Assembly: GCF_023516715.1 (NCBI RefSeq)
Contig: NZ_JAMGSI010000002.1
Location: 744,001 to 808,000 of the forward strand
Origin: Akkermansia massiliensis
GTDB taxonomy: Bacteria; Verrucomicrobiota; Verrucomicrobiia; Verrucomicrobiales; Akkermansiaceae
Direction of reading: 5' to 3'
DNA length: 64,000 nucleotides
Part shown: piece after piece, positions 36,929 through 55,077 of the stretch
Layout of the letters: every line of letters begins with the position of its first letter
Numbering within the stretch: position 1 is the stretch's first letter
Notes under the pieces: model-generated
Database searches by the model: none
Told to the model about the DNA's origin: nothing
What the model saw: the letters and a program-made list of their open reading frames with translations, nothing else
Translations under genes and position numbers: made by a program

Positions 36929-38485
36929 ATGGGCATGAGATGGCGGATTATGGCCGCGGCGGCATTTTGCGTGGCCGGGTGGGCTTCCGGGGATGTGCCG
37001 TCCGATCCTTCCAGGGAGTTTTTACTGCCTTCCGGAACGTTGAAGGCGTTCGCCGAATATATACCAGCCTATGGAAAAGGTGCGGTTCCTGGTCCGGAGG
37101 GGACGGAGCCTGTCCGTCTGGAACAAGCGATAGACGCCACCCGGGCGGCGAAGGATGCTCGTGCGCTGAAGGAAGCCGCCGCACTGGACGCCTATTGGCA
37201 GTCCCGGCTGGATGCTCTTTATGCTCCCGTAGCCGCCTGGTTGGCTTCACGGTGGTTTGTAAAGTCGGAATTGATTGAACATCAATCAAAGTGGTTTAAG
37301 GAAATGCCTCTTCAGGAATTGCAGGATGAAATAGTGATGGAATCCTGGGTGCAGGCGCAGGTGGCTTGGGAGGCATTTTTAAGAGCGGATGAGAGGTTTT
37401 ACAGGGCGTGGATGCTGGCCGACCAAAACCGGCGCTCTGCCATGAAGGGGGAGGGCGTACCCGATGCCGGGTCATTGGGAGAGCTGGAGGAGGCGGAAGT
37501 CCATGTGCGCCGGGCCTTCAAGAAGATGGAACGGATGATGGCTATTGCGGATACGGCCTGCGCGACGAATGCCTACCCTCTGGTGGACATTGCGCCCGTT
37601 GATCCCGGCTGGCAGGAGAATGACCCCGTGCTGCAAAAGGTGGAACAGGCCGTTTGTTCTTCTGAATATCCCTTCGTCAAGTTCCTGCTGGGCTCCTACC
37701 GGAATTACTGGAAGGCCCGGTTGTCCGGTATCCGGACGGCTTTCTTGCCGTAGAATGGCTGCAGTTTCATGCGTACCGGATGGGAGGACAGGCTCCGGGA
37801 GGCGGACCGGGCGTGGCGGCGTGATGTGGTTTTTTCCGTGGAGTATGAAATTCAGCCCGGCATTTATTTCTGGAGTTCCGGGATAGGCATTTACATGACG
37901 GCGCATGAGTCGTGGCTGTACCGCCAGAGGTGCCGGGATTTGCTGGCCGTCGCGGGGCTGGTACCGGAGAGAAGATCAGAGGGCTTCACCAGCCCGGCCC
38001 GGAATTTTGCCGGCTTTGGGGAAGCGCGTCTGATCGTGGAGCGCATGGCAGCGGCCGGAGGATCGTCCGCTGCGGCTTACCGAAAATTGTCTGAAAACCT
38101 GGAAAGGCTGCGCACGGATTTATTCAGTTCGGTTTCTCCCTGGCCAGCCGTTTTTTTGGCCGTGGAAACGGGGGATGAGAGCATGCTTCGTTTTCTGATG
38201 TCCCGGCTTCGCCTGTCCGGGGAGGATATGCTTCCGGGCGGTACGACGACTCCCCTGATGAAGGCCGTTGCCTCCCGATCCGCTCCCCTGGCGGATATTC
38301 TGGTTTCGTGCCGGGAGCTGCTCAATGCGGTGGATGCCAGGGGCCGTACGGCGTTGGACATGGCGCTGGAGCGCGGGGATGGGGAGATGGCCGCGTTGCT
38401 GCGGCGTCACGGAGGCATCACCGGAGAAGAACGGAAAAAGGAGAGAGAACATTCCTCCCCTTCCTCTCCGCCTGCGTATGACTGA
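36929..38485 (+). pseudogene. Secreted ankyrin-type protein interrupted by one in-frame stop
   Basis: Two open stretches in the same frame, 36929-37753 and 37769-38485, separated only by a TAG at 37751-37753 and five codons before the next ATG. The first part (about 274 residues) starts at an ATG with AGGAG upstream and has a signal peptide (WRIMAAAAFCVAGWASG); it is helical and Trp/Glu-rich. The second part (238 residues) has no signal peptide and ends with ankyrin-like repeats (VSPWPAVFLAVETGDESMLRFL; GGTTTPLMKAVASRS; DARGRTALDMALERGD). Read through the stop, the product is one secreted protein of about 518 residues. I take it as one gene broken by a point mutation; stop readthrough or two real proteins are less likely. 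Family unknown apart from the ankyrin part. Confidence 0.7.
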
Positions 38486-38825
38486 GCCGGAGCCGGGAAC
38501 GTTTTTCAGAGCTGGTGCGGGAGGTCATTCCCGGCAGGTTTTTTTGTTGGAAGGGGAATGGTTTTTGTTAATGCCGCCTTACCTGCCCGGAGCATGGTTG
38601 TCCGGAATATTCCGGAGGGTGCAAGGGCTGGAAGAGGTCCCGATGGTTTCCGGCGTGCAGCAACGCGTTCAAGACGGAGATAAGACAAACGGGCGGAAGT
38701 TCTGTCATTCATAAACGTTTCTGTTTGAAAATAAGTGAATTTGGAAAGTTTTCACGGCATAGTGGAAGTTCCCGGAACCGTGCATCGTCTGAACGGAACG
38801 AGACGGGAGGGAATCAAATGCCTAT
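38486..38825. other. Intergenic region of about 340 bases with a possible terminator
   Basis: No supported gene. GCCGGGAA (38492-38499) can pair with TTCCCGGC (38528-38535), followed by AGG and seven T residues, which may terminate the ankyrin-type gene despite the 28-base loop. The AT-rich stretch around 38700-38760 probably holds the promoter of the lipoprotein gene. Confidence 0.4.
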
Positions 38826-39245
38826 ATGAAACTGCATTCCATGATCATTGTCGGCGGAGCCGGCCTTTTGCTGTTGGGGGCCTGTTCCCCTTCTTCCTAT
38901 CAGACCACGTTCCCGGAACCGGCCTATGTGAAGGTTTCCACCAATAACGGAGCCTATGCGCCTTATCCGGACAACCCCATCGGCCAGCAGGAACTGGTGT
39001 ACTGGTATGATTCCCTTACTACCCCCATGACGGTGGTGGCGGAAGTACCGCCCACTCCCATCGTCACCAAGGGCCCCGGCCCGGTGATCCTTGATTCCAA
39101 CGATTTCTCCGCGAAGCTGTACCGGGACAGAACGGAAATCAAGAAGAAGGACAAGGATGGCAACTGGGTCACCAGCGTGCGCCCCACCACTCCCGCTGAC
39201 CAGCGCATGAGGAATTATGTGATGGCTTCCAAGAAAGCCCGTTAA
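38826..39245 (+). CDS. Small lipoprotein, unknown function
   Basis: A 139-residue lipoprotein. The signal peptide ends in the lipobox LLGAC (Cys at residue 20), so the mature protein should be lipidated and held in the outer or inner membrane. The mature part is short and Pro/Tyr-rich at first (TFPEPAYVKV, GAYAPYPDNP), then has a basic stretch (RTEIKKKDKDG). No family is recognised. The gene stands alone and is followed by a strong terminator shared with the convergent gene. Confidence 0.72.
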   Translation: MKLHSMIIVGGAGLLLLGACSPSSYQTTFPEPAYVKVSTNNGAYAPYPDNPIGQQELVYWYDSLTTPMTVVAEVPPTPIVTKGPGPVILDSNDFSAKLYRDRTEIKKKDKDGNWVTSVRPTTPADQRMRNYVMASKKAR

Positions 39246-39263
39246 TCTTTTCCTCCGTTAAAT

Positions 39264-39719
39264 TCACGAAAACCTGTCCGGCCTGCTTTCCTCTCCGGAG
39301 GAAGCAGGCCCGGCTTGTTTACAGGCAGGTTTTTCTTCCCATTCATCCGCGGAAACGGGACGGCGGCGAACGCTTTTCCCCGGCCATGGGAGATAGGCGT
39401 CCGTATAAAAGGAGGAGCCGCAGCCCCGGCATTCCAGCATGATGCCTGTGTCCGGCCTTCCCTGTTCCTCCGGCGTCTGCGAGGCGGGGCGAAGCCCGGC
39501 ATGCCCGCAGTGTGGGCAGCGGATGGGGAGAGGGGCGGCATATTGAATCATCAGAACTGCCGTGCAGACGAGCGCCCAGGCAATGTAACCGGCCCAGAAA
39601 GGCCATTCCGGATTCAGCAGCCAGATTGCCGTGACGACGGGAATGGAGCACAGGGCATATAGCAGGGTGCGCTTCTGCCTCGTGGCCAGGAGGTGGAAGC
39701 AGTAGATCGTATCCTGCAT
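39264..39719 (-). CDS. Small membrane protein with zinc ribbon, unknown function
   Basis: About 151 residues from the ATG at 39719. Two adjacent hydrophobic segments (about residues 15-35 and 42-62) are followed by a zinc ribbon with two Cys pairs, CPHCGHAG and CRGCG, about 30 residues apart, and a basic, probably disordered tail. The arrangement suggests a membrane hairpin with a cytoplasmic metal-binding knuckle. It begins 20 bases after the stop of the downstream GH43-like gene, so it may be the last gene of the leftward run from 45.7 kb. No family is recognised. Confidence 0.6.
   Translation of the reverse strand: MQDTIYCFHLLATRQKRTLLYALCSIPVVTAIWLLNPEWPFWAGYIAWALVCTAVLMIQYAAPLPIRCPHCGHAGLRPASQTPEEQGRPDTGIMLECRGCGSSFYTDAYLPWPGKSVRRRPVSADEWEEKPACKQAGPASSGEESRPDRFS
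39278..39322. terminator. Convergent (two-way) terminator
   Basis: GGCCTGCTTTCCTC (39280-39293) pairs with GAGGAAGCAGGCC (39298-39310) around a four-base loop. The plus strand continues with a TTGTTT stretch and the minus strand reaches GTTTTC. It lies between the lipoprotein gene and the end of the convergent zinc-ribbon gene, inside the latter's last codons. Confidence 0.75.
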
Positions 39720-39739
39720 GAAAGGGGGGAAGGAAACGG

Positions 39740-40849
39740 TTACAGATCCTTCAGGGTCCATTCATCCTTCCATTCCAGAATGATCTGGTCGCCGTCCCAT
39801 TTCATGGGAAGCCACATGTGGCGGCCGTCAATGGCGTTTTTAGGCCGCCAGATGTCCGCCATGAAGATGAATTTGCCGGGCTTGCCCTGTACGGGCAGGA
39901 TGTAGGTGCTTTGTCCGCCGAAGGTGATATTGGCCTTGGGCCCCACGCAGGGATTTTTGAGCTCCGTCCACGGTCCGGCCATGCGGGGGGCCACGGCGCT
40001 GCGAGCCGCGTTGGGTGCCCAGCCGGAGCAGCCGGAGGCGATCATGTAGTATTTCCCGTTGTGCTTGCAGATGGCGGGAGCTTCCATGTAGCGGTTGACG
40101 AAGACGCGGACGTATTTTCCGTTATGCCCGGTGTAGTCCGGCGTCAGTTCCGCGATGTGCAGGGTGATGTTCCCTTCGGAGGAGTAAATATGGTAGGCCT
40201 TGCCGTTGTCGTCCACAAAGATGGTCATGTCACGGCTCATCTGGCCGCCGGGGAAGTCCCTGCGGATGATGCGGACATAGTCAGGCATCTCCTTGGTGAA
40301 CTCGGTCGTCTGGTCCTTTTTGTCCAGATTCAGGGGCCATTTGCCCGGATTGACGCGCCCGGCTTTCAGGAACGTGAACGGTCCGGTGGGCTTTGTGGCC
40401 GTAGCCACGCCCGCGTACGCGGAACCGTAGCCCTTCCCCCTGAGTTCCAGGTGGAACCACATCACGTACTTTTTGGTCTTCTTGTTGTAGACTACCTTGG
40501 GGCGTTCCAGGATGCAGCCCTTGGCGATGGGGTGGGAGTTGTCCCCTTCCACCACTTTCAGGGCGATTCCTTCGTCCTTCCAGTTGTAAAGGTCCCTGGA
40601 GGAATAGCAGTGCACGCCCACCTGGGCGCGGTTTCCGGCGTCCCCCTCCACCTTGTGCTCCCCGTACCAGTAGTAGGTGCCCTTGTCGTACAGGATGCCG
40701 CCGCCGTGGGCATTGATGTGCACGCCGTTGTTGTCCGTCCAGATTTCACCGGGCTTGAAGGACGTGTGTTTGACGGGGGCGTCAGCCGTGGCAACGGAGG
40801 AGAGGCAGCAGGCCAGTCCGGCAAAAAAGGTGAGCAGCAGTGTTTTCAT
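39740..40849 (-). CDS. Secreted GH43-like glycosidase, copy B
   Basis: A 369-residue five-bladed beta-propeller enzyme with a signal peptide (MKTLLLTFFAGLACCLSSVATA). The N-terminal block NGVHINAHGGGILYDKG and WYGEHKVEGDAG is typical of GH43 subfamilies that act on beta-galactans; an acidic residue in CILERPKVVYN is a candidate catalytic residue, and YMEAPAICKHNGKYYMIASGCSGWAPN is another conserved block. It is a close tandem paralogue of copy A (long stretches of identical protein and DNA) but is shorter between residues about 190 and 215. Exact activity cannot be given; exo-beta-1,3-galactanase-like is a guess. It starts 21 bases after copy A. Confidence 0.8.
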   Translation of the reverse strand: MKTLLLTFFAGLACCLSSVATADAPVKHTSFKPGEIWTDNNGVHINAHGGGILYDKGTYYWYGEHKVEGDAGNRAQVGVHCYSSRDLYNWKDEGIALKVVEGDNSHPIAKGCILERPKVVYNKKTKKYVMWFHLELRGKGYGSAYAGVATATKPTGPFTFLKAGRVNPGKWPLNLDKKDQTTEFTKEMPDYVRIIRRDFPGGQMSRDMTIFVDDNGKAYHIYSSEGNITLHIAELTPDYTGHNGKYVRVFVNRYMEAPAICKHNGKYYMIASGCSGWAPNAARSAVAPRMAGPWTELKNPCVGPKANITFGGQSTYILPVQGKPGKFIFMADIWRPKNAIDGRHMWLPMKWDGDQIILEWKDEWTLKDL

Positions 40850-40870
40850 GCGTGTTGGCGGTGAATCGGG

Positions 40871-42016
40871 TTACATGTCTTCCAGTTTCCATTCGTCTTT
40901 CCATTCCAGTTTGATCTGGTCTCCGTCAAACTGGATGGGAAGCCACATATAGCGGCCGTCAATGGCGTTCTGGGGCCGCCAGATGTCCGCCATGAAGATG
41001 AATTTGCCGGGTTTGCCCTGTACGGGCAGGATGTAGGTGCTCTGTCCGCCGAAGGTGCTCCCGGCCTTGGGACCCACGCAGGGGTTTTTGAGCTCCGTCC
41101 ACGGTCCGGCAATGCGGGGAGCCACGGCGCTGCGGGCGGCGTTCGGCGCCCAGCCTGTGCATCCGGAGGCGATGAAGTAGTATTTGCCCTTGTGCTTGAA
41201 GATGGCGGGAGCTTCCATGAAGCGGCCGGGGAAGACGCGGACGAATTTTCCGGTGTGCTCCGTGTAGTCCGGCGTCAGTTCCGCGATGTGGGTAGTGCTG
41301 TTTTCCTCGGAGGAATAGATGTGGTAGGCCTTGCCGTCATCATCCACAAAGATGGTCATGTCCCGGCTCATCTGTCCTTTTTCAAAGTCCTTCTTGAACA
41401 TGTCCTCGGAACGCACGCCTTCCGGCAGGGCGCTGGAGGTCAGGCCGGGCACTCCCTTGAACGTTTTCATGGTCTGGTCCTTCTTGTCCATGTTCATGGG
41501 CCATTTGCCCGGATTGACGCGCCCGGCTTTCAGGAACGTGAACGGGCCGGTGGGCTTTGTGGCCGTAGCCACGCCCGCATAGGCCGCGCCATAGCCTTTT
41601 CCCTTGAGCTCCAGATGGAACCACATCACGTACTTTTTGGTCTTCTTGTTGTAGACCACCTTGGGGCGTTCCAGGATGCAGCCTTTGGCGATGGGGTGGG
41701 AGTTGTCCCCTTCCACCACTTTCAGGGCGATTCCCTCGTCCTTCCAGTTGTACAGGTCCCTGGAGGAATAGCAGTGCACGCCCACCTGGGCGCGGTTTCC
41801 GGCGTCCCCCTCCACCTTGTGTTCTCCGTACCAGTAGTAGGTGCCCTTGTCGTACAGGATGCCGCCGCCGTGGGCGTTGATGTGCACGCCGTTGTTGTCC
41901 GTCCAGATTTCACCGGGCTTGAAGGACGTGTGCCGGACCGGCGTTTCCGCGGTGGAGACGGCGCCCGCGCCGCAGAACAGGCAGAGCGCCAGAAGGGATT
42001 TCATGGTGTTTGTCAT
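40871..42016 (-). CDS. Secreted GH43-like glycosidase, copy A
   Basis: About 381 residues from the ATG at 42016, which overlaps the stop of the upstream toroid gene as ATGA and so is the likely coupled start; an in-frame ATG four codons later begins the signal peptide MKSLLALCLFCGAGAV. The propeller fold and blocks are as in copy B (INAHGGGILYDKG, CILERPKVV, FMEAPAIFKHKGKYYFIASGCTGWAPN). Compared with copy B it carries about 15 extra residues (around KGVPGLTSSALPEG). The two copies are nearly identical in the N-terminal third, which indicates recent duplication or gene conversion. Confidence 0.8.
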   Translation of the reverse strand: MTNTMKSLLALCLFCGAGAVSTAETPVRHTSFKPGEIWTDNNGVHINAHGGGILYDKGTYYWYGEHKVEGDAGNRAQVGVHCYSSRDLYNWKDEGIALKVVEGDNSHPIAKGCILERPKVVYNKKTKKYVMWFHLELKGKGYGAAYAGVATATKPTGPFTFLKAGRVNPGKWPMNMDKKDQTMKTFKGVPGLTSSALPEGVRSEDMFKKDFEKGQMSRDMTIFVDDDGKAYHIYSSEENSTTHIAELTPDYTEHTGKFVRVFPGRFMEAPAIFKHKGKYYFIASGCTGWAPNAARSAVAPRIAGPWTELKNPCVGPKAGSTFGGQSTYILPVQGKPGKFIFMADIWRPQNAIDGRYMWLPIQFDGDQIKLEWKDEWKLEDM

Positions 42017-43266
42017 GGCCGGAATGGTGTGGAAGTAAGGGATGAAGGCGGTTCCGGCTGTCCGTACAGCTTGTCCCACGCGCGGGAAAGGGCGTAAAGG
42101 GCGTAGCCGGTGCCGTAGAATTTGTGATAATTGTACAGGGGGTAATCCCACCAGGAACCGTCTGTTCCCTGACGGGTGAGGATGTCGTCCGCCAATAGAG
42201 ACGCATGGCGTTTTACCTGATTTGGGGCCAGCATGTCCAGACACATTCCTGAATAATAGTATCCGTAGTAGAAAAAGTAGCCGGAATTCTGAGCGAAACT
42301 TTCATGGGGAGTGGGCTTGTGCAGGGCCATCGTCAGCCATCCCCGGCGGCTCCACAGGCGGTCCAGTCCGTCCACGAGCTGGCGCAGGGAGATGTCCTCC
42401 GGCTCCCAGAGCCTGATGGCGTAGTCACAGGCGGGGGTGCGTGCCAGGCTGCCGGTGTGGCGGTTGATGGGCCGGCCGGGATAGAAGGCATGCCCCAGAG
42501 AATAGACGTAGGTTCCCGCCGGCGTCCTCTGGGATTTGAGGAATTTCAACGCGCGGCTGAATATTTTGTTGTCCAGCGACAGGCCGAATGATTTTCCGGC
42601 CATCCAGGCGGAGATGAGGACGGTTCCCGTCAGGAAGGAGGTAGGCTGCGCCGCGGGCCGTTTGCTGAAGCCGGAATAGGTGAGGTAGCCCCAGCCCCCC
42701 ATGGCGGAAGCCAGCTCATTGAGCTTTTTCACCTGGGAGCCGGCGCAGCTTTTCAGCTCCCGGTAGCGCGGGCTGTTCCGGTCCAGTCTTGCGGCCCGCA
42801 TGCTCATGGCGTCCAGCACGTAGGTATGCGCCCAGGTGTTGTACACGCAAAGGGAGTCGCCGCGCTTCAAATGGGGCATCGTACGGATCAGGTAGTTTTC
42901 CGCGCGGGTCATGGCCTGCTGCACGGCGGGTTCGTTGTGCAGGGGGCTGGCGTTAAGCCCCGCAATGCACAGGGCGGTGCTTGCCGTCTTGAAGGTGAGC
43001 GGGCCGTCCGGATAGGGGCAGAGGATGTTCCAGGTGCCGATCACCCGGTGGTCGCCCCAGGAGCCGTCCCTGTTCTGCGTTTTCAGCAGGAAGTCTACGC
43101 CGCGGCGGAACGCCTGGTCAAATTGTTCGGATTTCGCGGGCGGGATGTCCGGAATTTTGGCGATCTGGATGGCATCCGCCTTTTCCGCCTGCGCGGGTTT
43201 CCCGTGCGCTGCGGGAAGATGCAGGCACAGAATCGCGAGAAGGCTGGTCGTCAGCAGGCGGAACAT
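42013..43266 (-). CDS. Secreted alpha/alpha-toroid protein (prenyltransferase/squalene-oxidase repeat), copy B
   Basis: A 417-residue protein with a signal peptide (LLTTSLLAILCLHLPAAHG). Repeats of the QW type are visible: TQNRDGSWGDH near residue 65, MGGWGYLTYSGFSKRP near 190, and QGTDGSWWDYPLYNYHKFYGTGYALYALSR near the C-terminus, written here in part. The fold is that of terpene cyclases and protein prenyltransferases, but the usual DxDD or DCTAE acid motifs are not seen, and export makes a classical terpene cyclase unlikely. The family is annotated only by repeat. It is paralogous to the next gene (3-base gap) and overlaps the GH43-like gene by four bases. Confidence 0.78.
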   Translation of the reverse strand: MFRLLTTSLLAILCLHLPAAHGKPAQAEKADAIQIAKIPDIPPAKSEQFDQAFRRGVDFLLKTQNRDGSWGDHRVIGTWNILCPYPDGPLTFKTASTALCIAGLNASPLHNEPAVQQAMTRAENYLIRTMPHLKRGDSLCVYNTWAHTYVLDAMSMRAARLDRNSPRYRELKSCAGSQVKKLNELASAMGGWGYLTYSGFSKRPAAQPTSFLTGTVLISAWMAGKSFGLSLDNKIFSRALKFLKSQRTPAGTYVYSLGHAFYPGRPINRHTGSLARTPACDYAIRLWEPEDISLRQLVDGLDRLWSRRGWLTMALHKPTPHESFAQNSGYFFYYGYYYSGMCLDMLAPNQVKRHASLLADDILTRQGTDGSWWDYPLYNYHKFYGTGYALYALSRAWDKLYGQPEPPSSLTSTPFRP

Positions 43267-43269
43267 GGG

Positions 43270-44496
43270 TCAGGAGGCCGTTGCGGCATTGGAAGGGTAC
43301 AGGGATTCCCTGACGCGGGAGACGGCGTACAGGGCATAGCCGGTACCGTAGAATTTATGGTAGTTGTACAGGGGATAGTCCCACCAGGAGCCGTCTTTTT
43401 CCTGCATGGGCAGGAGGTCGCTTGCCAGATGGGAGGCATGGCGCGCCAGATGTTCCGGGGCCACTTCCTCCAGGCAGCGGGCGGCGTAATAATACCCGTA
43501 GTAGAAGAAGTAGCCCGCGTTCTGGGCAAAGCTTTCATGGGGAATGGGCTTTTTCACGGCCAGGGAAAGCCAGCCGCCGCGGCTCCAGATGCGTTCCAGG
43601 CCGTCTTCCAACTGCCGCCTGGAGATGAAAGCCGGGTCATACCGCATCAGGGCCAGGTCTCCGGCGGGGGTGCGGGCCAGACTGCCGGTGTGGCGGTTGA
43701 TGGGCCGGCCGGGATAGAAAGAGTGGGAAAGGGAATAGACGTAGCTGCCGGCAGGGGTCCGCAGTTTTTCCAGGCAGGCGACGGCGCGTTTGACGACTCG
43801 GGCATCCGGCTTGAGGCCGAAGGCCTGTTCCGAGTCCTTGTAGGCGAGCAGGACCGTAGCCGTCAGGAAGGAGGTGGGCTCTCCGATGGGACGTTTGGAA
43901 AAGGTTTCAAACGTATAATAGCCCCAGCCGCCCTGGACGTCCGCCATCTGGTCCAGCGCCTTGACCTGAAGGCCGGCCACTTTTTTTAGTTCCGCATACA
44001 GGGGGGAATCCGCAGGAAGATTGCGGGCCGCCCGGCTCAGGGCGGAGAGGCCGTAGGCATGGCCCCAGACGCCGAGCACGGTGCGCGTGTCTCCCCGTTT
44101 CAGGGTGGGCAGCGTGGTTAGCAGGTATTGCACGGCCTTGTCCAGCGCGGCCTTGACGGCGGGGTCCTCCTTCAGGGGGCTGGTGAGCAGGCCGATTACG
44201 CACAGGGAGGTGGAGGCCGTTCTGAACGACCTGGGCCCTTCCGGGTAGGGGCAGATGACGTTCAGCCCCTTGGTGCGCGTATGGCTTCCCCAGGAGCCGT
44301 CCCTGTTCTGTTCCTTCAGCAGGAAGTCCGCCGCCTTCCGGATGGAGGCGTCCAGGGTTTCCCGGGAGGGCGGCGGAACGTCCGGCACCCTGGCAATGGG
44401 AATGGTATCCCTTTTTTCCGCGTTTTCCGCCGGAATGGAGGCGCAGAGCGCCGTGCTGGCCCCCAGGGCGGCGAGAAAAAAGACGGCTTTATTCAT
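43270..44496 (-). CDS. Secreted alpha/alpha-toroid protein (prenyltransferase/squalene-oxidase repeat), copy A
   Basis: A 408-residue paralogue of the next gene with a signal peptide (VFFLAALGASTALCAS). It has the same repeats: EQNRDGSWGSHTR near residue 65, VQGGWGYYTFETFSKRP near 195, YPGRPINRHTGSLARTPAGD in the middle and EKDGSWWDYPLYNYHKF near the end. The HTGSLART and HESFAQN segments are nearly identical in both copies and may mark the active or binding site. The acid motifs of triterpene cyclases are missing. It begins 17 bases after the adaptor gene, so the whole run is probably one transcript. Confidence 0.78.
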   Translation of the reverse strand: MNKAVFFLAALGASTALCASIPAENAEKRDTIPIARVPDVPPPSRETLDASIRKAADFLLKEQNRDGSWGSHTRTKGLNVICPYPEGPRSFRTASTSLCVIGLLTSPLKEDPAVKAALDKAVQYLLTTLPTLKRGDTRTVLGVWGHAYGLSALSRAARNLPADSPLYAELKKVAGLQVKALDQMADVQGGWGYYTFETFSKRPIGEPTSFLTATVLLAYKDSEQAFGLKPDARVVKRAVACLEKLRTPAGSYVYSLSHSFYPGRPINRHTGSLARTPAGDLALMRYDPAFISRRQLEDGLERIWSRGGWLSLAVKKPIPHESFAQNAGYFFYYGYYYAARCLEEVAPEHLARHASHLASDLLPMQEKDGSWWDYPLYNYHKFYGTGYALYAVSRVRESLYPSNAATAS

Positions 44497-44513
44497 GGAG
44501 GTCCGTAGGGGGA

Positions 44514-45698
44514 TCAGGCCTGCTGGTCCTTGATGGTGACCTGGACGGGGAGGCCGGGAGCGAAGATCTGGCTGGCGGGAACCTTGGGCGTGATGATGAT
44601 GCGGCGCTTGCCGTCCGCCCCCGGAATGGGGCTGGCTTCCGTAATGACGCCGGGAATCTGCATGTTCGTTACCTTGATGACGACGGCTTCCCCCACCTTG
44701 GGCGTGGCGGTGGAGTCCGGCAGCGTGGCCTGCACGATCAGTTCCGAGTTCGGCGGGACGATGGTGGCGATTTTGTCAAAGGCTTCCAGCTTGCCGCCGG
44801 GCTTGAGCTTTTCCGCCACCGGAATGGCTACCCATTTGTCCGCCACATAGCCGCCGTACAGCAGGATGCCGTTTTCAGGGGCCTTGAAGGCGGCCATTTC
44901 CCGGTCCGCTTTCAGTTCGTTGTATTTGTCCTGAAGGCGGCGCAGGGACACCTCCGCCTCCGTCAGGGCTATCTTTTTCTGTTCCAGGTCAAAATCAGCC
45001 TGCTTCCGGGCCTGTTCCAAATCCATCTGCTTTTCCTTGACCGCCGTGGCGTAGTCTTCCCCCAGGCGGTGGATGTTGCGCAGCTTGGCCAGCTCCGCGA
45101 CTAGCTTGGCTCCCTGGACGGCAAATTCGCTTTCCCCCAGTTCGTTTTTCAGGCGCTTGAGGATGATTTCTTCCGTTTCCTCCGCCACCTGGTCATCCTT
45201 GTACATCTTGGTAAGCTGGTTCAGCTCCTCCTGCTTGTAGGACATGTGGCGCAGGGCCTTGTTGACGCGTTCCTCTTCTTCCGCCAGCATGCGGGCCTTC
45301 CGCTTTTCCAGGAAGTCTTTCTGGTCCTCCTCCGTCCGGGTCAGGGCCGTCTGGTATTTTTGCAGAGCCAGCGCGGAGCGTTCCTTCTGCTGGTCCAGGG
45401 CGTACCGGAGTTTCAGCACTTCCAGGTTTTTGCTCTTGATGGTGCGTTCGTAGTCTTCAATGCTCTTGTCCAGGATGCGGAAGTCCGCCTGCGCCACGGA
45501 TTCCCCCTTCTTGACGGAGCTGCCCTGCGGCATGATGCCGAGCAGGAAAATGTCCGAGCTCCCCTTGGGGGAGAAGGAAATGGACTTGGTGTTTTTCTTG
45601 GGAAGCAGGATGCCCGGGGCAATGGAATCCGCCAGGGCGGGAATTCCGATGAGCAGGGCGGCCAGAAGTCCGGCCGTTGTAAGAGTTGTGCGGTTCAT
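44514..45698 (-). CDS. Secreted HlyD/RND-adaptor-like protein
   Basis: A 394-residue protein with a signal peptide (LLAALLIGIPALADS) and no N-terminal membrane anchor beyond it. The N-terminal part has a short lipoyl-like beta segment (IMPQGSSVKKGESVAQADFRILDKS), then a long Glu/Lys/Gln-rich alpha hairpin (about residues 75-275), the returning lipoyl half (MAAFKAPENGILLYGGY) and beta-barrel and proximal domains (VKVTNMQIPG; RRIIITPKVPASQIFAPGLPVQV). This is the architecture of periplasmic adaptor subunits of efflux pumps. No inner-membrane pump or outer-membrane channel gene is adjacent; instead the two toroid and two GH43-like genes follow. Confidence 0.78.
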   Translation of the reverse strand: MNRTTLTTAGLLAALLIGIPALADSIAPGILLPKKNTKSISFSPKGSSDIFLLGIMPQGSSVKKGESVAQADFRILDKSIEDYERTIKSKNLEVLKLRYALDQQKERSALALQKYQTALTRTEEDQKDFLEKRKARMLAEEEERVNKALRHMSYKQEELNQLTKMYKDDQVAEETEEIILKRLKNELGESEFAVQGAKLVAELAKLRNIHRLGEDYATAVKEKQMDLEQARKQADFDLEQKKIALTEAEVSLRRLQDKYNELKADREMAAFKAPENGILLYGGYVADKWVAIPVAEKLKPGGKLEAFDKIATIVPPNSELIVQATLPDSTATPKVGEAVVIKVTNMQIPGVITEASPIPGADGKRRIIITPKVPASQIFAPGLPVQVTIKDQQA

Positions 45699-45713
45699 GG
45701 TGGCAGGATGGAA

Positions 45714-46394
45714 TCAGGATTGATGCGCGGAAAAGGGGACGAAGCGCCCCTTCTTTCCAAGAATAACGGTGTGAAAAGTGGTTTTCTTTCCTTTATGTGA
45801 GGCAGGCACGGCCTCCGTGCTCACTTCAAAACCCGCTTTTTGGAGTGTGCGGGCAAGCCGGACGTCCGGCCGGGCCACGGTGATGACCAGCAGGCCGCCC
45901 TGCTTGAGCGCGGCAAAATAGTCGGAAGCCTCCGCCACGCTCAGGTTCATGCGTTCATGCGTGGAACGGCACAGGATGGCGTGGAAGCTTTTCGGGTTTT
46001 TGCGGGCGATCTGGAGCGCCGGAGTGAATTCCACGCTGACGCGGGGATCGTGCAGGAAGCCGGGGCGTTCCCCGTCCATCAGCTCCTGGTGCCAGTCAAC
46101 GAGCGGCTTGCAGGGCTCCGCTACGATGAAGCGGGCCTTTTCCCTCTGGACCAGGTCCATCAGGGCAAACAGGGTGAACCCCAGGCTTAGGCCGTCCAGG
46201 AGAAAAGCGGGCTGGTTGGCCCTTTTAACCGGGGCTGCCGCCATGGCCGCTGCCGCTTCATTGCTCCCATGGGAAAAACTGGACGCGAGCTGCACGCCGT
46301 CACGAAGAAGAAAATGGAAGCCGTCCCGTTCCCAGAGGTCGAGAATGGAACCGTCGGGCAAGGTGGTGGAAGCTAATTTGGTAATGGGTTTCAT
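45714..46394 (-). CDS. Spermidine-synthase-like methyltransferase-fold protein
   Basis: About 226 residues from the ATG at 46394. The core resembles SpeE-type Rossmann proteins: the N-terminal beta segment LPDGSILDLWERDG, LLDGLSLGFTLFALMD in the place of the SAM-binding glycine motif, ARFIVAEPCKPLVDWH at the end of strand 2, VSVEFTPALQIA and FHAILCRSTHERMN. The motif I glycines are degenerate (GLSLGF), and the usual Asp pair of spermidine synthase is not evident, so the reaction is uncertain. It lies 15 bases upstream of the adaptor gene, same direction, and could be the first gene of that run. Confidence 0.7.
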   Translation of the reverse strand: MKPITKLASTTLPDGSILDLWERDGFHFLLRDGVQLASSFSHGSNEAAAAMAAAPVKRANQPAFLLDGLSLGFTLFALMDLVQREKARFIVAEPCKPLVDWHQELMDGERPGFLHDPRVSVEFTPALQIARKNPKSFHAILCRSTHERMNLSVAEASDYFAALKQGGLLVITVARPDVRLARTLQKAGFEVSTEAVPASHKGKKTTFHTVILGKKGRFVPFSAHQS

Positions 46395-46583
46395 ATGAAA
46401 TAATGCCGGATACACAGCGTAGGAAAGAACGCTTTTCAGGGCAAGTCCGGACAGCGTGTTTAGGATGGAATACGCTCCAAATTAAAAAAAATTGCACGGA
46501 ATTTGGGCTTTGCGCATTCTTTTTCTTGATTTACGGTCGGAAATAAGCGAGAGCTATCGTTCAGCACAGCTATTTTTTCCGAT

Positions 46584-47303
46584 ATGAGTAATCCACCTCC
46601 CCCCTCCATTCCGGGCGGTACTCCGCCTCCGCCCAGCATTCCGACTCCGCCGGCCGCTCCCTCCGTGCCCAAGGCACCGGCGGCTCCCTCTGTCCCTCCC
46701 GCCTCCGGCGCTCCTGCGGCTCCCGCCGCACCCGCCGCGCCGCCCGCTGCTGCTGCGCCCACCATTCCCCTTCGTCCCGCCGGGCTCGGCGGAGGCATCA
46801 AGCTTGGCGGCGGGTTGAAGACGGTTGCTCTCGGCTCCGCCACGACGCCCGTGGCTCCTCCCGCCGGTGCGGCACCCGCAGCCGCTGCGCCCACCGTTCC
46901 CCTGACCCCTCCCGGGGCAGGCATGGCGACCGCCCAGCTTCCGCAGGCCACCATCGGGCTGAATACCGCTCCTGCGGCCGCTCCGGTTTCTTCCGCCTCC
47001 TTTACGGCCAAGAAGTTTGAAGAAGATACGGAAGCGTCTCCCAATACGCTGCTCAATATTCTTTCCTTCGTGGCTCTTGCCTTTGCGCTTATTTTCGTTG
47101 GTTATCAATACGCCACGGATACCCTGGAAGCCCGTAGCATGACGGGCTGGCTGGGGAGCGACTCCAAGCCCGCTGCCGCGGCTCCCACCTCCGCCGGTGA
47201 AGAAGCGACCGATGACGCGGCCGCCGAATCTTCTTCCGATGACGCCTCCTCCGATGCCCCTGCAGAAGAGTCTTCCGATGATGGCGCCGATGCAGAAGAA
47301 TAA
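46584..47303 (+). CDS. Pro/Ala-rich single-pass membrane protein, unknown function
   Basis: A 239-residue protein of three parts: residues 1-150 are made of Pro, Ala, Ser and Gly with collagen-like and PPPP stretches; one hydrophobic helix (ILSFVALAFALIFVGYQYA, about 158-176); and an acidic tail of Ala, Ser, Asp and Glu. The first part has no signal peptide, so it is probably cytoplasmic, with the acidic end outside. I do not recognise it. It lies about 40 bases upstream of thioredoxin in the same direction, and the polyproline stretches make it a plausible client of factors that rescue ribosomes stalled at proline, such as EF-P. Confidence 0.6.
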   Translation: MSNPPPPSIPGGTPPPPSIPTPPAAPSVPKAPAAPSVPPASGAPAAPAAPAAPPAAAAPTIPLRPAGLGGGIKLGGGLKTVALGSATTPVAPPAGAAPAAAAPTVPLTPPGAGMATAQLPQATIGLNTAPAAAPVSSASFTAKKFEEDTEASPNTLLNILSFVALAFALIFVGYQYATDTLEARSMTGWLGSDSKPAAAAPTSAGEEATDDAAAESSSDDASSDAPAEESSDDGADAEE

Positions 47304-50809: not shown

Positions 50810-51553
50810 CTACTGTCTCTTTCTTCTTAACAGCAGGGAGCCCAGTCCCAGCAGGCTCAGCGTGGCCGTTGCGGGTTCCGGAACGGTTTCATAGTTGATC
50901 AGTACCTTGGTGACGCCGTTTTCCGTGACCTGCGTCACGGTCGCCTGTACCTGGGAGTTGCTGGCGATGTTCAGGCCGCTCAGGTCCAGATTGAGGTTGC
51001 CTCCCTGCTGGGCGGATTTGATGGAAGCCAGTTCAATCGTTCCGCTTCCGGAAAGGCTGTTCATATCCAGCGTGCCGGTGAAGGTGACGGTTTTTCCGTT
51101 GGTCCAGAAGTTGGTGAGGTCCGTAGCGGTCCAGGAACCGTGTTCCGCCGCCGTAAAGGTGCCGAAATCCAGCGTAAAGTCACGGCCCAGTCCAAAGGCG
51201 TTGCTGGATTCAAATACCAGATGGGAATTGCCTTCCAGGGTAAAGGAATTGACGTTGAGATCCCCTATCGTAGTCGTGCAGACCAGGGTGCTTCCGGACC
51301 CTACCTGGACCGTATTGGTGGCGCCGAAGAAGGATTGCGCGGTGGACCAGGTAACAGTTCCGGCGTTTTCCCCGATGATGGCGTTGTCATTGGTGCTGTG
51401 CTGCGGGAAGTAGCCGTTCGGCGCGCCGTCCACCGTCCAGTTGTTGGAATCTCCATAGATCCCGTTTCCTGCCGCTCCGCTCCAGACATAGGTGGCAGCC
51501 TGGGAAATCCCGGCGGATAGGCAGCATAAAATGCAGAATGTAGATAATCTCAT
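50810..51553 (-). CDS. PEP-CTERM sorted surface protein with beta-helical repeats
   Basis: About 247 residues from the ATG at 51553 (an in-frame start nine codons upstream also exists). A signal peptide (FCILCCLSAGISQA) is followed by TYVWSGAAGNGIYGDSNNWT, the opening typical of autotransporter-like and PEP-CTERM proteins of Verrucomicrobiota, then a Gly/Ser/Thr/Asn-rich beta-helical body. The C-terminus has the sorting signal VPEPA, a hydrophobic helix and the basic end RRKRQ, recognised by an exosortase that moves the protein to the surface. The function of the body is unknown. It is a single gene with its own terminator. Confidence 0.82.
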   Translation of the reverse strand: MRLSTFCILCCLSAGISQAATYVWSGAAGNGIYGDSNNWTVDGAPNGYFPQHSTNDNAIIGENAGTVTWSTAQSFFGATNTVQVGSGSTLVCTTTIGDLNVNSFTLEGNSHLVFESSNAFGLGRDFTLDFGTFTAAEHGSWTATDLTNFWTNGKTVTFTGTLDMNSLSGSGTIELASIKSAQQGGNLNLDLSGLNIASNSQVQATVTQVTENGVTKVLINYETVPEPATATLSLLGLGSLLLRRKRQ

Positions 51554-51842
51554 GCTCAACAGATACTTTAACAGAGACACGGATAACGGATTTCCAATCC
51601 GGCGTCAATGCAAATGTTTGAAGGAGGAACACATCAGGCAAACATATCTTTACTACAACTTAAACGGAAAAGAGGGCACGAGCATTTAATTAATTCATAA
51701 TTCATTTATTGTAAAATATTTATTTTTTAATAAACCGGGAATCGGATTGGAAATCCGTGCAGACGTCATTCCTTTATTCGGAGATGCCGTTTTTAAAAGA
51801 AAAGATTTAATGTGCGGCAGGAGACAGTGGCTGAAACATACG
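51554..51842. other. Intergenic region of about 290 bases
   Basis: No supported gene. The stretch around 51660-51740 is very AT-rich and is the likely promoter of the leftward PEP-CTERM gene. No RNA gene or operator was recognised. Confidence 0.45.
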
Positions 51843-51918: not shown

Positions 51919-54900
51919 TTAGAACGTATAGCTGATGGCTCCGTTGATTCCATGGGAGGTCAGCTTGTTGCGGGTCTCGAACTGATAGCAGACCCGTGCT
52001 CCCCAATTGCTGGAGAAGAGCACGTCAATGCCGGCATTCAGGCGGAATGCGGTGCGACCGACGTTGACGCCGCGCACGTTCCAGGCTCCCAGGGGTCCGC
52101 TGACGTTGGACTTGGGATTCATGCGGCTCACATCCTGCGCCGCGGCCACCGTCAAGGCCGGGGTGATGGTGGTGCCGCCGTCCGTCTGGTAGGCGCGGGC
52201 GATGGTCACGCCCAACGGAATGGTCCAGTTCTGGGCGCGGGCGTGGTCAAAGGAGCGGCCGTAAGGTCCGCTTTCCGAGAAGCCCTTGAGTTCGGTGGTC
52301 ATGAATTCGATACCCGTGTAAGGCGTTACGAAGGCCTTGCCGAGTGCGAAGTGTTCCGTCCAGGTGGCGTACAGGCCGCCGCTGAAGGAGTCCGCATTTT
52401 CATTGCCGTTGGCGGCGGTTCCCATGATGTAGGAATTGCCCTTGAACTTGGAGCGTCCGTAGGCGCCGTAGCCGTCCAGCGTGAACTTGCTTTCCCTGAA
52501 GGGATGCATGCGGCCGTAGATCATGGCCATGAAGGAATCCACGTCGTAGTCGGAGCCGAATCCGCTCTTGTCCTTGATGTCGCCGAAGCTCTGGCCCACT
52601 GCAATGCCGATCAGGGAACCCTGGGCAGCCTTGTAGTCAATACCCACGGCATAGCCGCCTGCATTGTACTTGTAGCCGGAGATGCCTCCGCGGGCGTCCT
52701 GGTCATCCCAGTTGCCCATGCCGCCTACCCAGATGTTGCCGTTGCCCTTGGCGATCGTCTTGCGGGCGATCGGGGAGCCCTTGGCGTCCACCACTTCAAT
52801 GGTGTCTTCCGTCTGGCGGGCCATGGAGGCGGCGGACTGGATGCGTCCCAGGTCGGCAAAGCTCCTCAGCGTCCGGCTGGCGGCCCACGCGAAGTTCATC
52901 ACGTTTTCACCGCTGACGGACTGAATCATGTTGGCAGCTTCGTTCGGGTCCGTCACGCGCAGCAGGGTTTCATAGAACTGGGCGGCGGGAGAACCGGCGG
53001 CCACGTTCAGGCGGTTGCTTTCCAGAGCGGCCGCTACGGTGTAAACGTTGCCGTTGTAGCCGGACATGGGACCGTCAATGCCCCTCATGTTCTGGGTGAT
53101 GGTGGTGGTGCCTTCCGTCGTTCCCGGAGCCATGGTGGTGGTCAGGAACAGGTTGTTCAGCAGGCGTCCGGAAATGTCCGTGCCGTTCAGCGTGACGTTC
53201 ACGCTTTCCGTGCCCTTCTTCAGCTGGGCGATTGGGACGGGATTGCCGGTGGCGTCGGATACCTGGATGCCCACGCGGGAATTATCCGTGAAGGTGGCCG
53301 GGGTGCCGAAGTCAAGCACGGAGCCGTCGCTCAGGAGCAGGGTGGAATCGCCTCCGAAGGAGGCGGAAGCCCCCTTCATGGTGGAATTCTGCGCCAGGGT
53401 CACCTGGCCCGTCCGGATGTCGTAAACCGTATCGTCCGTGCCCATTACGGCGGCGCCGATGGACTGGAGGGGGCCGACTTTTCCGGTAGCGGCGTCCACG
53501 GTTCCAAAGGTGGCGTGGCCAATGATCAGGTTGCCTTCAAGCTGCTGGTAGGTGCCTCCGAACGTGTCGGTGGCTCCGCCGCCGCCGTAGACGAGGGTGC
53601 CCGTGCCGGTCTTCGTCATGACGGTCTGGTCAGCGGCCAGAGGGGCGGCGTCAGCCGTGGGGGCCGCGGGAGCCGCGGTGTCAATGCCGTCATTGATGAA
53701 GGTGTAGGCGGTGCCGTCCGTATAAACGTTGATCTGGGTGTTCTGGCCCGCATGCACGGAACCGAGGACGCCGTTGGACGTGTTGCCGGAAAGAACTGCG
53801 CCGGAACCGATGTACAGGGTCTGGCCGTCGGCCAGGTTGATGGCGGCCTTGCCGGCGTTGGTGGCGGTGTTGCCCACGACCTGGGTGCCGTCTCCGATGG
53901 AGATCTGGCCTCCCGCAGTGATGATGCCGTCAGCGGCGGTATTGCCGGTGATCACGCTGTTGGTGCCGATGGCAATATTGTCATCCGCCGTCAGGGTGGA
54001 ATTCCCCTTGACGGTGGTGTTGTTGCCCAGGGTGACGCTGCCTTCGATGGTGTCCAGCTTTTCCGTGCCCACAACCGTATTCCAGTTGCCGTCGTCATTG
54101 CTGTAAACCGTCTTGTTCAGGTCGACGGATTCCGCGGAAACGGTGGTGCCGTTCAGAACGGTGTTGTCTCCCAGGGAAACATTGCCGCCTACAGTCTTGA
54201 TGGTGATGGATCCGGCCGTGGTTTCACCAAGGACGATGCCGCCGGAAATGCTGTCATCCATGGAATCGATGACGGTTTTGCTGTTCTGGTTGTTGGCCGC
54301 GTCAAACTGTTCCGTGGTCACGGTGCCGATCCCGGCCGTGGAGGTCACGTCTCCGTTCAGCGTAACTTTGGCCGCCGGATCACTGACGATCTGGCCGGTA
54401 GCCGTCACGGTATCCTGCATGGTGACGTTGTTGCCCAGGACCACGGCCTGCTCGTTGGAATTGCTGTAGGTGTCGTAGGTCGTCCTGGTATAGGCCTCAC
54501 CTGCCGGGGGCGTGGAGGGGTCCACCGTGTGAGCCGCCTGGCCGGTAACGGTGACGGCTTTTTCCATGGAAACGTTGTCGCCGATGCCTACCTGTCCGTT
54601 CGTGGAAGTGACGGTGGCGCCTACCGTCTTGGGATTGGCGGCGTCATTCGTTCCTTCGATGGCAATGTTCCTGCCGTCAATGGTGGTGGTGTCCGTGGCG
54701 TTCGTGACTACGATGTCATTGTCGCTTCCCAGGGGTTCGCTCAGTGTGATGTCGTTGAAGCTGACCTGTCCATTAACCAGATCATAATTGAAATTAACCA
54801 GTTTGCCGCTGGGGTCCGCCATTTGGACGGTAACGTTGCCCGTTCCGGAGATGGCGTTCAACTGGGCCCGTTGTTCCTGGGTCAGTGTGATGTTATCGGA

Positions 54901-55077
54901 GCCTGCCGGCACGGTGATAGTGATGGTTGACGCTTCATTCGAGGCGGCAGCCTGGTTCCAGGCCGTCACGAATGAATCGGCGCTGTTGGCCGCATAGTTA
55001 GCTGCCGTAGCAACGGAGAAACTGCCAAGGCAAGCGATAACTGCTGCCAGCAGCATATGTGGGAGTCTTAATTTCAT
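51919..55077 (-). CDS. Autotransporter with repeat-rich passenger and outer-membrane barrel
   Basis: A 1,052-residue type V secretion protein. A signal peptide (MLLAAVIACLGSFSVATA) leads into a passenger of about 740 residues; its middle (about 170-460) has degenerate repeats of the form (V/I)xLGxNxxVxGxT, for example VVLGNNVTMQDT, VSLGDNTVLNGT, VTLGNNTTVKGN, ISIGDGTQVVGN, LYIGSGAVLSGN, each preceded by a variable strand, as in a left- or right-handed beta-helix. A linker with AWAASRTLRSFADLG precedes the autotransporter barrel (about 790-1,052), which ends in ISYTF with the C-terminal Phe needed for Bam insertion. No protease or lipase motif is seen in the passenger, so adhesion is the default guess. 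It stands alone. Confidence 0.88.
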   Translation of the reverse strand: MKLRLPHMLLAAVIACLGSFSVATAANYAANSADSFVTAWNQAAASNEASTITITVPAGSDNITLTQEQRAQLNAISGTGNVTVQMADPSGKLVNFNYDLVNGQVSFNDITLSEPLGSDNDIVVTNATDTTTIDGRNIAIEGTNDAANPKTVGATVTSTNGQVGIGDNVSMEKAVTVTGQAAHTVDPSTPPAGEAYTRTTYDTYSNSNEQAVVLGNNVTMQDTVTATGQIVSDPAAKVTLNGDVTSTAGIGTVTTEQFDAANNQNSKTVIDSMDDSISGGIVLGETTAGSITIKTVGGNVSLGDNTVLNGTTVSAESVDLNKTVYSNDDGNWNTVVGTEKLDTIEGSVTLGNNTTVKGNSTLTADDNIAIGTNSVITGNTAADGIITAGGQISIGDGTQVVGNTATNAGKAAINLADGQTLYIGSGAVLSGNTSNGVLGSVHAGQNTQINVYTDGTAYTFINDGIDTAAPAAPTADAAPLAADQTVMTKTGTGTLVYGGGGATDTFGGTYQQLEGNLIIGHATFGTVDAATGKVGPLQSIGAAVMGTDDTVYDIRTGQVTLAQNSTMKGASASFGGDSTLLLSDGSVLDFGTPATFTDNSRVGIQVSDATGNPVPIAQLKKGTESVNVTLNGTDISGRLLNNLFLTTTMAPGTTEGTTTITQNMRGIDGPMSGYNGNVYTVAAALESNRLNVAAGSPAAQFYETLLRVTDPNEAANMIQSVSGENVMNFAWAASRTLRSFADLGRIQSAASMARQTEDTIEVVDAKGSPIARKTIAKGNGNIWVGGMGNWDDQDARGGISGYKYNAGGYAVGIDYKAAQGSLIGIAVGQSFGDIKDKSGFGSDYDVDSFMAMIYGRMHPFRESKFTLDGYGAYGRSKFKGNSYIMGTAANGNENADSFSGGLYATWTEHFALGKAFVTPYTGIEFMTTELKGFSESGPYGRSFDHARAQNWTIPLGVTIARAYQTDGGTTITPALTVAAAQDVSRMNPKSNVSGPLGAWNVRGVNVGRTAFRLNAGIDVLFSSNWGARVCYQFETRNKLTSHGINGAISYTF

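Follow-up and report, generated by a model that had tools for sequence, protein, structure and literature searches.

The genome of Akkermansia massiliensis, a bacterium of gut mucus (G000, 3.28 Mb), contains, within a stretch of 64,000 nucleotides (contig NZ_JAMGSI010000002.1, positions 744,001 to 808,000 of the forward strand; hereafter the window), a minus-strand gene run encoding an HlyD/EmrA-like periplasmic adaptor, two paralogous alpha/alpha toroid proteins (toroids a and b), and two enzymes of glycoside hydrolase (GH) family 43 (GH43 a and b). Our best reading is that adaptor and toroid constitute a unit of two genes that is of ancient origin in Verrucomicrobiota and Planctomycetota. 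We also propose, tentatively and with a little less than even confidence, that both proteins act as one periplasmic unit that has no dedicated pump gene beside it and that has been recruited for mucin-glycan use in Akkermansia. The features concerned, in window positions, are:

44514-45698, minus strand: HlyD/EmrA-like periplasmic adaptor of 394 residues, exported as judged by eye, without an adjoining pump (HlyD_3, E = 3.8e-6)
45153-45230, minus strand: hairpin-tip motif of the adaptor, residues 157-182 (from conservation in 70 sequences)
43270-44496, minus strand: toroid a, a predicted (alpha/alpha)6 barrel, exported as judged by eye (weak SQHop_cyclase_C match, E = 1.7e-7)
43501-43581, minus strand: mouth loop of toroid a, residues 306-332 (conserved loop of face A)
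43342-43404, minus strand: mouth loop and beginning of the last helix of toroid a, residues 365-385 (invariant residues)
42013-43266, minus strand: toroid b, a paralogue about 56% identical to toroid a (weak SQHop_cyclase_C match, E = 6.3e-8)
40871-42016, minus strand: GH43 a, subfamily-24-type, start inferred (Glyco_hydro_43, E = 7.7e-20; 6eug/6euh/6eui group, E = 1.5e-130)
39740-40849, minus strand: GH43 b, subfamily-24-type (Glyco_hydro_43, E = 6e-20; 6eug group, E = 9e-125)

The pairing emerges from a scan of public bacterial genomes with a 13-sequence toroid alignment, which returned 548 toroid-encoding stretches, the best 80 of which gave the 79 loci that we read; where a phylum is named, these belong to Verrucomicrobiota and Planctomycetota. 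In 75 of the 77 scorable loci, the gene immediately upstream of the toroid, in the same orientation, encodes the adaptor; the exceptions are L110 and L128. A strict count, requiring an adaptor found by its profile, gives 71 of 77; the four loci added to it (L071, L079, L093, and L125) have an adaptor match directly upstream with a spurious open reading frame (ORF) in between, and two loci that start at the toroid (L089 and L127) were unscored. Outside Akkermansia, 69 adaptor-toroid gaps were measured: 55 range from -4 to +70 bases, and a four-base overlap (-4) occurs 16 times, the ORFs of the fetched loci having been called mechanically, with uncertain starts. In an order-level sample, the adaptor likewise adjoins the toroid in six of the seven loci outside the genus. 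A preliminary description of this DNA had held that toroid genes lying mostly apart from GH43 or adaptor genes in other genomes would speak against a common system: separation from GH43 is what we found outside the Akkermansia clade, whereas separation from the adaptor is strongly contradicted by the adjacency just described.

The two genes also co-occur. Among 59 sampled Akkermansia genomes, toroid and adaptor are each present in nine, and these are the same nine. Across 188 genomes of the class, 23 have a toroid and 22 an adaptor scoring above 240 bits, all of the latter toroid-bearing; in the remaining toroid genome, G265, the toroid is partial and close to the start of its contig. This threshold was chosen after seeing the score gap (250 versus 173 bits, the next adaptors scoring at most 173). 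The 30 adaptor loci kept separate in the same way: the 22 above 240 bits have the tip motif described below, and the eight under it have neither this motif nor a toroid. A toroid lies in the same stretch for 21 of the 22 high-scoring adaptors; the other stretch, L220, reaches the contig end, and its genome (G370) carries a toroid on another contig.

The adaptor is of recognizable build. Its AlphaFold model (predicted local distance difference test, pLDDT, 86.3; predicted template modeling score, pTM, 0.66; alignment of 70 sequences) shows two 95-residue helices (74-168 and 174-268) forming a hairpin, plus a beta-barrel and lipoyl-type halves, and model and PDB matches together agree with the barrel, split lipoyl domain, and hairpin of HlyD/MFP periplasmic adaptors. 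The top Foldseek match among the matches listed is EmrA (4tko, E = 3e-16; VIA Z 15.8 over 316 residues, root-mean-square deviation (rmsd) 10.4), and the RND adaptor model picks up 63 of the 70 members at an E value of 0.01 or lower. The 70 rows (alignment A4) correspond to 69 of 70 listed stretches, all but L098, and the window adaptor, seven shorter stretches having been dropped beforehand. Conservation is concentrated in the hairpin tip: 24 columns are conserved in 90% or more of the sequences, and 16 of them fall within its 50 residues (146-195). Toroid-linked adaptors have in common the motif E-E-L-x-Q-L-x-x-M-Y followed by E-E-T-E-E, whereas six of the eight lower-scoring, unlinked adaptors, those examined over their whole length, show a G-[YF]-x-[ST]-[KR] type of tip. 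In known adaptors the hairpin tip contacts the outer-membrane channel, and the usual channel-meeting tip motif of tripartite efflux and type I secretion is lacking in the toroid-linked adaptors. In addition, about 60 C-terminal residues are missing in 12 of the 70 rows as aligned, namely all seven from Akkermansia and five of the 63 others. The C-terminal region of adaptors forms part of the pump-facing domain, part of which the shortening would then remove.

That the adaptor stands without a neighboring pump next to exported toroids (export judged by eye) had been suggested from the window itself, and the wider comparison supports it. We saw no recurring pump by eye among the 30 largest neighbor clusters of the 79 loci, nor any among the 25 Pfam families listed of the 54 found in 99 neighbor ORFs (150-900 residues, two neighbor positions, 73 non-Akkermansia loci). 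A cognate inner-membrane pump encoded with the adaptor, as in tripartite efflux or type I secretion, was not found as a property of these loci. Transporter genes near the pair, judged by eye, were single cases: in L030, an RND-like pump accompanied by a separate adaptor, which matches weakly, lies about 1-2 kb downstream, and in L025 and L027 genes resembling ABC transporters are found at a greater distance downstream. Because of them, we have slightly lowered our confidence in a unit without a pump gene and slightly raised that in ordinary tripartite export, where the adaptor would work with a TolC-like channel and a pump of the ABC, MFS, or RND class whose genes lie elsewhere, and where the toroid would be an enzyme that finishes or modifies the exported compound. 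We regard such export as unlikely: the barrel, lipoyl-type, and hairpin parts retained by the adaptor, its closeness to EmrA among the matches listed, its frequent RND adaptor matches, and the pump near the L030 pair all fit it, but no efflux-type pump or channel recurs in the neighborhoods surveyed, a mechanosensitive channel accounting for four of the 99 ORFs, and both the divergent tip and the loss of C-terminal residues in 12 rows, all Akkermansia rows among them, argue against it. Mechanosensitive-channel-like genes lie directly before the adaptor in L115, L117, L119, and L120, which are Opitutia-type or related loci.

The protein encoded next to the adaptor is an alpha/alpha toroid with QW-type repeats, as in squalene-hopene and other class II terpene cyclases. 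The AlphaFold model of toroid a is an (alpha/alpha)6 barrel (pLDDT 85.8, pTM 0.88, 77 sequences), and all 77 rows of our toroid alignment match SQHop_cyclase_C at E 0.01 or better. This alignment (A3) represents 74 of the 79 loci (without L061, L080, L098, L102, and L136), plus the two toroids of the window and an additional one from L065; L065 and G166 were treated as one genome, as were L092 and G044. By sequence, the toroid is nearest to squalene-hopene cyclase (profile E = 5e-14 to 2sqc, a sum over weak repeats none of which is significant singly). By fold, class II terpene cyclases, GH76, AprG, and unsaturated glucuronyl hydrolase tie among the matches listed (VIA Z 21.9-23.0). The DxDD string, general acid of the class II terpene cyclases, is absent from 75 of the 77 rows, both window copies included, as the preliminary description had noted for the latter, and present in L074 and L097.

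What the toroids conserve is one mouth of the barrel. In the 77 sequences, 78 columns are at least 90% conserved. Of these, 46 lie in the loops of the outer-to-inner face, 22 in inner helices, eight in outer helices, and two on the opposite face, and all 29 invariant columns fall in outer-to-inner face loops or inner helices. The invariant residues include N267, R275, R306, H320, Y329, Y337, D373, Y379, and H380, with E321 kept in 76 of 77 sequences; residues 365-385 of toroid a are invariant at Q365, G369, W372, D373, Y379, H380, Y383, G384, and T385. Toroid a keeps 73 of the 78 conserved columns and toroid b 71, the changes of the latter including K315H and E366G. To judge from these alignments, the mouth looks like an active or binding site, and H320, E321, D373, Y379, H380, R275, and N267 could be catalytic residues of an (alpha/alpha)6 hydrolase or lyase. 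A LanC-like or thioester (TED) toroid was considered and rejected: 16 of the 77 sequences weakly match TED_complement, but there is no invariant cysteine.

Two further toroid architectures were observed. In the window genome itself (L162:6303-11232, corresponding to G000:C2, about 169.3-174.2 kb), three paralogues in tandem, each with what looks like a membrane helix at the N-terminus, have a C-terminal toroid domain weakly akin to the window toroids. In L066:1173-4103, a toroid is fused to a GDSL-lipase domain (9.4e-18) in one frame of 976 residues, which also has a weak GDPD-like match below the cut-off.

The closeness of the toroid to class II terpene cyclases in sequence and, among the matches listed, in fold favors another explanation, lipid or terpenoid handling, in which it would derive from a squalene-hopene-type cyclase, be exported, and bind or convert a lipid of the membrane that the adaptor would move between membranes. 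We consider this improbable, since nearly all toroids lack DxDD, the fold match is a tie with GH76, AprG, and unsaturated glucuronyl hydrolase, and none of the 59 sampled Akkermansia genomes, nine toroid-bearing ones included, has a hopene cyclase match at 1e-20, a result limited by a weak control (positive in one of 14 genomes, none over the cut-off). In G180, which is outside this sample, a PF13243 match near 617 kb, in a frame of 394 residues, passes the cut-off with its neighbors. For the missing DxDD and the missing hopene cyclase matches, limited as these are by the control, a hopanoid enzyme was not our first choice. The lipid explanation does have a counterpart in the literature: in the excerpts consulted, a bile study of A. 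muciniphila (PMC7671984) counts such genes as hopanoid genes, citing the KEGG hopene cyclase AMUC_RS02875, and reads the adjacent 'terpene cyclase/mutase' genes AMUC_RS03775 and AMUC_RS03780 in this way, with a slight rise under ox-bile (log2 0.211 for RS03775; the tag is printed twice, so that the value for RS03780 is ambiguous). These two genes are probably the apparently exported toroids without the cyclase acid motif described here, because the interpolated position of RS03775 is near 827 kb, if two PF13243 matches in G180 are RS02875 and RS06010/06015, and toroid a lies at 820 kb in G180. If so, the hopanoid reading of the 'terpene cyclase' genes in those excerpts is open to question.

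In Akkermansia, the pair is part of a larger gene run. The preliminary description had listed five leftward genes separated by 3-21 bases or overlapping, and our ORF calling confirms their positions and spacing: 17 bases between the adaptor and toroid a, three between the toroids, a four-base overlap of toroid b and GH43 a, and 21 bases between the GH43 genes. The longest ORF for GH43 a spans 40871-42244, its first 76 codons overlapping toroid b in another frame; we placed its start at 42016 because that start fits its relatives. N-terminal signal peptides were judged by eye, without a signal-peptide tool. The same gene order, as the preliminary description had suggested looking for, recurs in other Akkermansia genomes, for example G180, and in G074 with a single GH43 gene, and is therefore not due to chance.

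The toroid and GH43 genes have unequal histories. The path between toroids a and b measures 1.23 changes per column, against 0.34 between GH43 a and b, with several inner branches poorly supported in both trees (five of seven unresolved in the GH43 tree, from which L042 and L043, where no frame was found, were dropped). Two toroids also occur in the distant genomes G015 and G166, and toroid a clusters with one from each of them (85/85, a support that is not strong), consistent with a toroid duplication predating the split of the G015, G166, and window lineages; going by the trees, this duplication is far older than that of GH43. In the 59-genome sample, GH43 occurs in 13 genomes, beside the toroids in eight, elsewhere in G015, and without any toroid in four, two of which are less than 90% complete; it thus adjoins the toroids in eight of the nine toroid-bearing genomes. 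Two GH43 copies are found in seven of the 13, all from the muciniphila-type clade. Directly behind the toroids, in place of GH43, G166 and G015 carry GH36, and G015 also GH20 (L023:3819-8326 with GH36 and GH20, L167:10951-13182 with GH36). Glycosidases of different families (GH36, GH20, and GH43) occupy the position behind the toroids, which supports a glycan role in the genus but not a fixed partnership of toroid and GH43. The notion of matched toroid/GH43 pairs as a dedicated system, put forward on the grounds that both gene types are doubled and adjacent (as they are in seven of the sampled genomes), is very improbable given the unequal duplication ages, the GH36 and GH20 genes replacing GH43 behind two toroids, and the single GH43 beside two toroids in G074, and we reject it. 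Of the proposed glycan system, the connection with glycans stands for Akkermansia and does not extend further: outside the genus, no glycoside hydrolase is among the 25 Pfam families listed of the 54 from the 99 neighbor ORFs, three of which are sulfatases. A sulfatase cluster occurs in 18 of the 73 non-Akkermansia loci, at scattered positions; sulfatases are usually abundant in Verrucomicrobiota and Planctomycetota, and we took it as a case of that abundance and not as a sign of linkage.

The two GH43 enzymes are of a known kind. When GH43 a is aligned with 7bys, Glu102, Glu208, and Gln263 of the Pc enzyme correspond to E116, E268, and Q325, and GH43 b has the same motifs; this is the residue set of GH43 subfamily 24 (a Glu acid, a Glu for recognition of the C4-OH, and a Gln replacing the Asp base), with the catalytic acid, Gln base, and C4-OH recognition residues as named in the accessible part of PMC7939473. 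Because of the subfamily-24 match and the conserved catalytic residues, both are probable exo-beta-1,3-galactosidases. Partial views of three other papers bear on such enzymes: a table in PMC12834350 gives Amuc_0697 and Amuc_0698 as GH43 proteins of mucin-grown cells, 'important for growth on mucin'; PMC12631272 reports GH43, the gene unspecified, as higher on mucin and needed for mucin growth, citing Davey et al. 2023; and PMC11790493 includes recombinant A. muciniphila enzymes of GH2, GH35, and GH43_24 among nine candidate beta-galactosidases screened. Our searches by locus tag returned one paper, on the GH43 genes only, and those aimed at the adaptor-toroid pair returned none that describes or names it; as they covered open-access literature, they agree only weakly with the earlier statement that no system with this gene set is described, and the GH43 members of the set are ordinary subfamily-24 enzymes.

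We return to the adaptor and toroid as one periplasmic unit. An exported HlyD/EmrA-type adaptor with a very long hairpin and a specialized tip would join an exported (alpha/alpha)6 toroid in one periplasmic complex, holding the toroid in place across the periplasm or at a channel of the outer membrane. The toroid would most likely use the mouth of its barrel, which is conserved, aromatic, and charged, to bind a ligand or act on it; our leading guess is a ligand of the glycan type. In Akkermansia, the toroid would have been duplicated early, and the operon would have gained exported GH36, GH20, or GH43_24 enzymes as co-expressed partners for mucin glycans, which in the muciniphila-type clade would be one or two GH43_24 enzymes of the exo-beta-1,3-galactosidase type. 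Our data show the linkage of the genes, their co-occurrence, the conservation of tip and mouth, the lack of the cyclase motif, and the differing ages of the duplications; the physical complex, the class of ligand, the membrane topology, and co-expression are inferred. A more specific version, possible but doubtful, is that of a novel periplasmic machine, a pump-free adaptor tube conserved in Planctomycetota and Verrucomicrobiota whose re-made hairpin tips would hold an exported toroid enzyme instead of a TolC-type channel, or at its rim, and which would have been turned to mucin glycans in Akkermansia.

Besides the transporter genes of L030, L025, and L027, several observations weigh against the proposed unit and its glycan role. 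Some toroids lack an adjoining adaptor (the toroid of L028 stands alone, and in L110 none of the frames in the stretch examined encodes an adaptor), and L128 has one gene between the two. The adaptor profile was trained on toroid-linked adaptors, so that the score gap arises partly by construction, and the sampled species do not count as independent: a single genus supplies 13 of the 23 toroid genomes of the class sample, and the other ten come from five families. In sequence, the toroid is closest to squalene-hopene cyclases and not to sugar enzymes, no glycoside hydrolase recurs next to the pair outside Akkermansia among the neighbor families listed, and the accessible part of PMC11790493 credits activity on lactosylceramide to GH2 and GH35, not to GH43. 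Our main doubts are whether a pump encoded elsewhere is involved and whether the ligand is a lipid. Adaptors are familiar as pump components, and a family with no linked pump, a re-made tip, and one exported partner over two phyla would widen the roles of these proteins. For mucin handling by Akkermansia, it would also offer targets, probably the genes just before Amuc_0697/0698.

The complete run comprises seven closely spaced minus-strand genes, from 46415 down to 39264, in the order methyltransferase-like protein, adaptor, toroid a, toroid b, GH43 a, GH43 b, and zinc-ribbon membrane protein. The two outer genes, which are not among the five of the preliminary description, are:

45714-46415, minus strand: methyltransferase-like cytosolic protein, first gene of the run (ORF; weak Methyltransf_23 match, E = 0.023)
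39264-39761, minus strand: zinc-ribbon membrane protein (by eye), possible final gene of the run, overlapping the end of GH43 b

The methyltransferase-like gene lies 15 bases upstream of the adaptor, and its product has no Pfam match at E 0.01; its family occurs in 20 of the 73 non-Akkermansia loci, directly before the adaptor in all 14 of the positions listed. Both outer genes are also present in G074 and G180, where the zinc-ribbon gene again comes after GH43. A promoter and terminator scan of 38400-46700 gave counts at the level of shuffled sequence and is uninformative on transcription units. Elsewhere in the window, a large autotransporter-like protein (51919-55077) lies beside a PEP-CTERM-type protein (50810-51580), both named by eye.

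Compared with known systems, the window adaptor resembles EmrA (4tko, the best structural match among those listed), HlyD, and MacA in combining a beta-barrel and lipoyl-type halves with a long hairpin of alpha-helices. It differs from them in having no recurring linked pump, a distinct conserved tip, a C-terminus shortened in Akkermansia, and, by eye, a cleavable-looking signal peptide in place of a membrane anchor. The toroids have the alpha/alpha toroid and QW-like repeats of squalene-hopene and other class II terpene cyclases (8paj, VIA Z 23.0, 294 residues, rmsd 3.8), but those of the window are exported (by eye), consist of a single domain of about 370 residues, lack DxDD, and have their own set of conserved mouth residues. 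The same barrel is found in sugar enzymes such as GH76 (6shm, Z 22.4, 302 residues, rmsd 3.7) and unsaturated glucuronyl hydrolase, which is of the GH88 type (2zzr, Z 21.9, 332 residues, rmsd 4.2); the toroid is 9% identical in both alignments, and the catalytic residues are not equated. Finally, the GH43 enzymes are alike in sequence to the GH43_24 exo-beta-1,3-galactanases BT3683 and Pc1,3Gal43A (E = 1.5e-130 to the 6eug group), with the same Glu/Glu/Gln set; in contrast with these, we saw no carbohydrate-binding module in the window enzymes, which sit in an operon with an adaptor and toroids.

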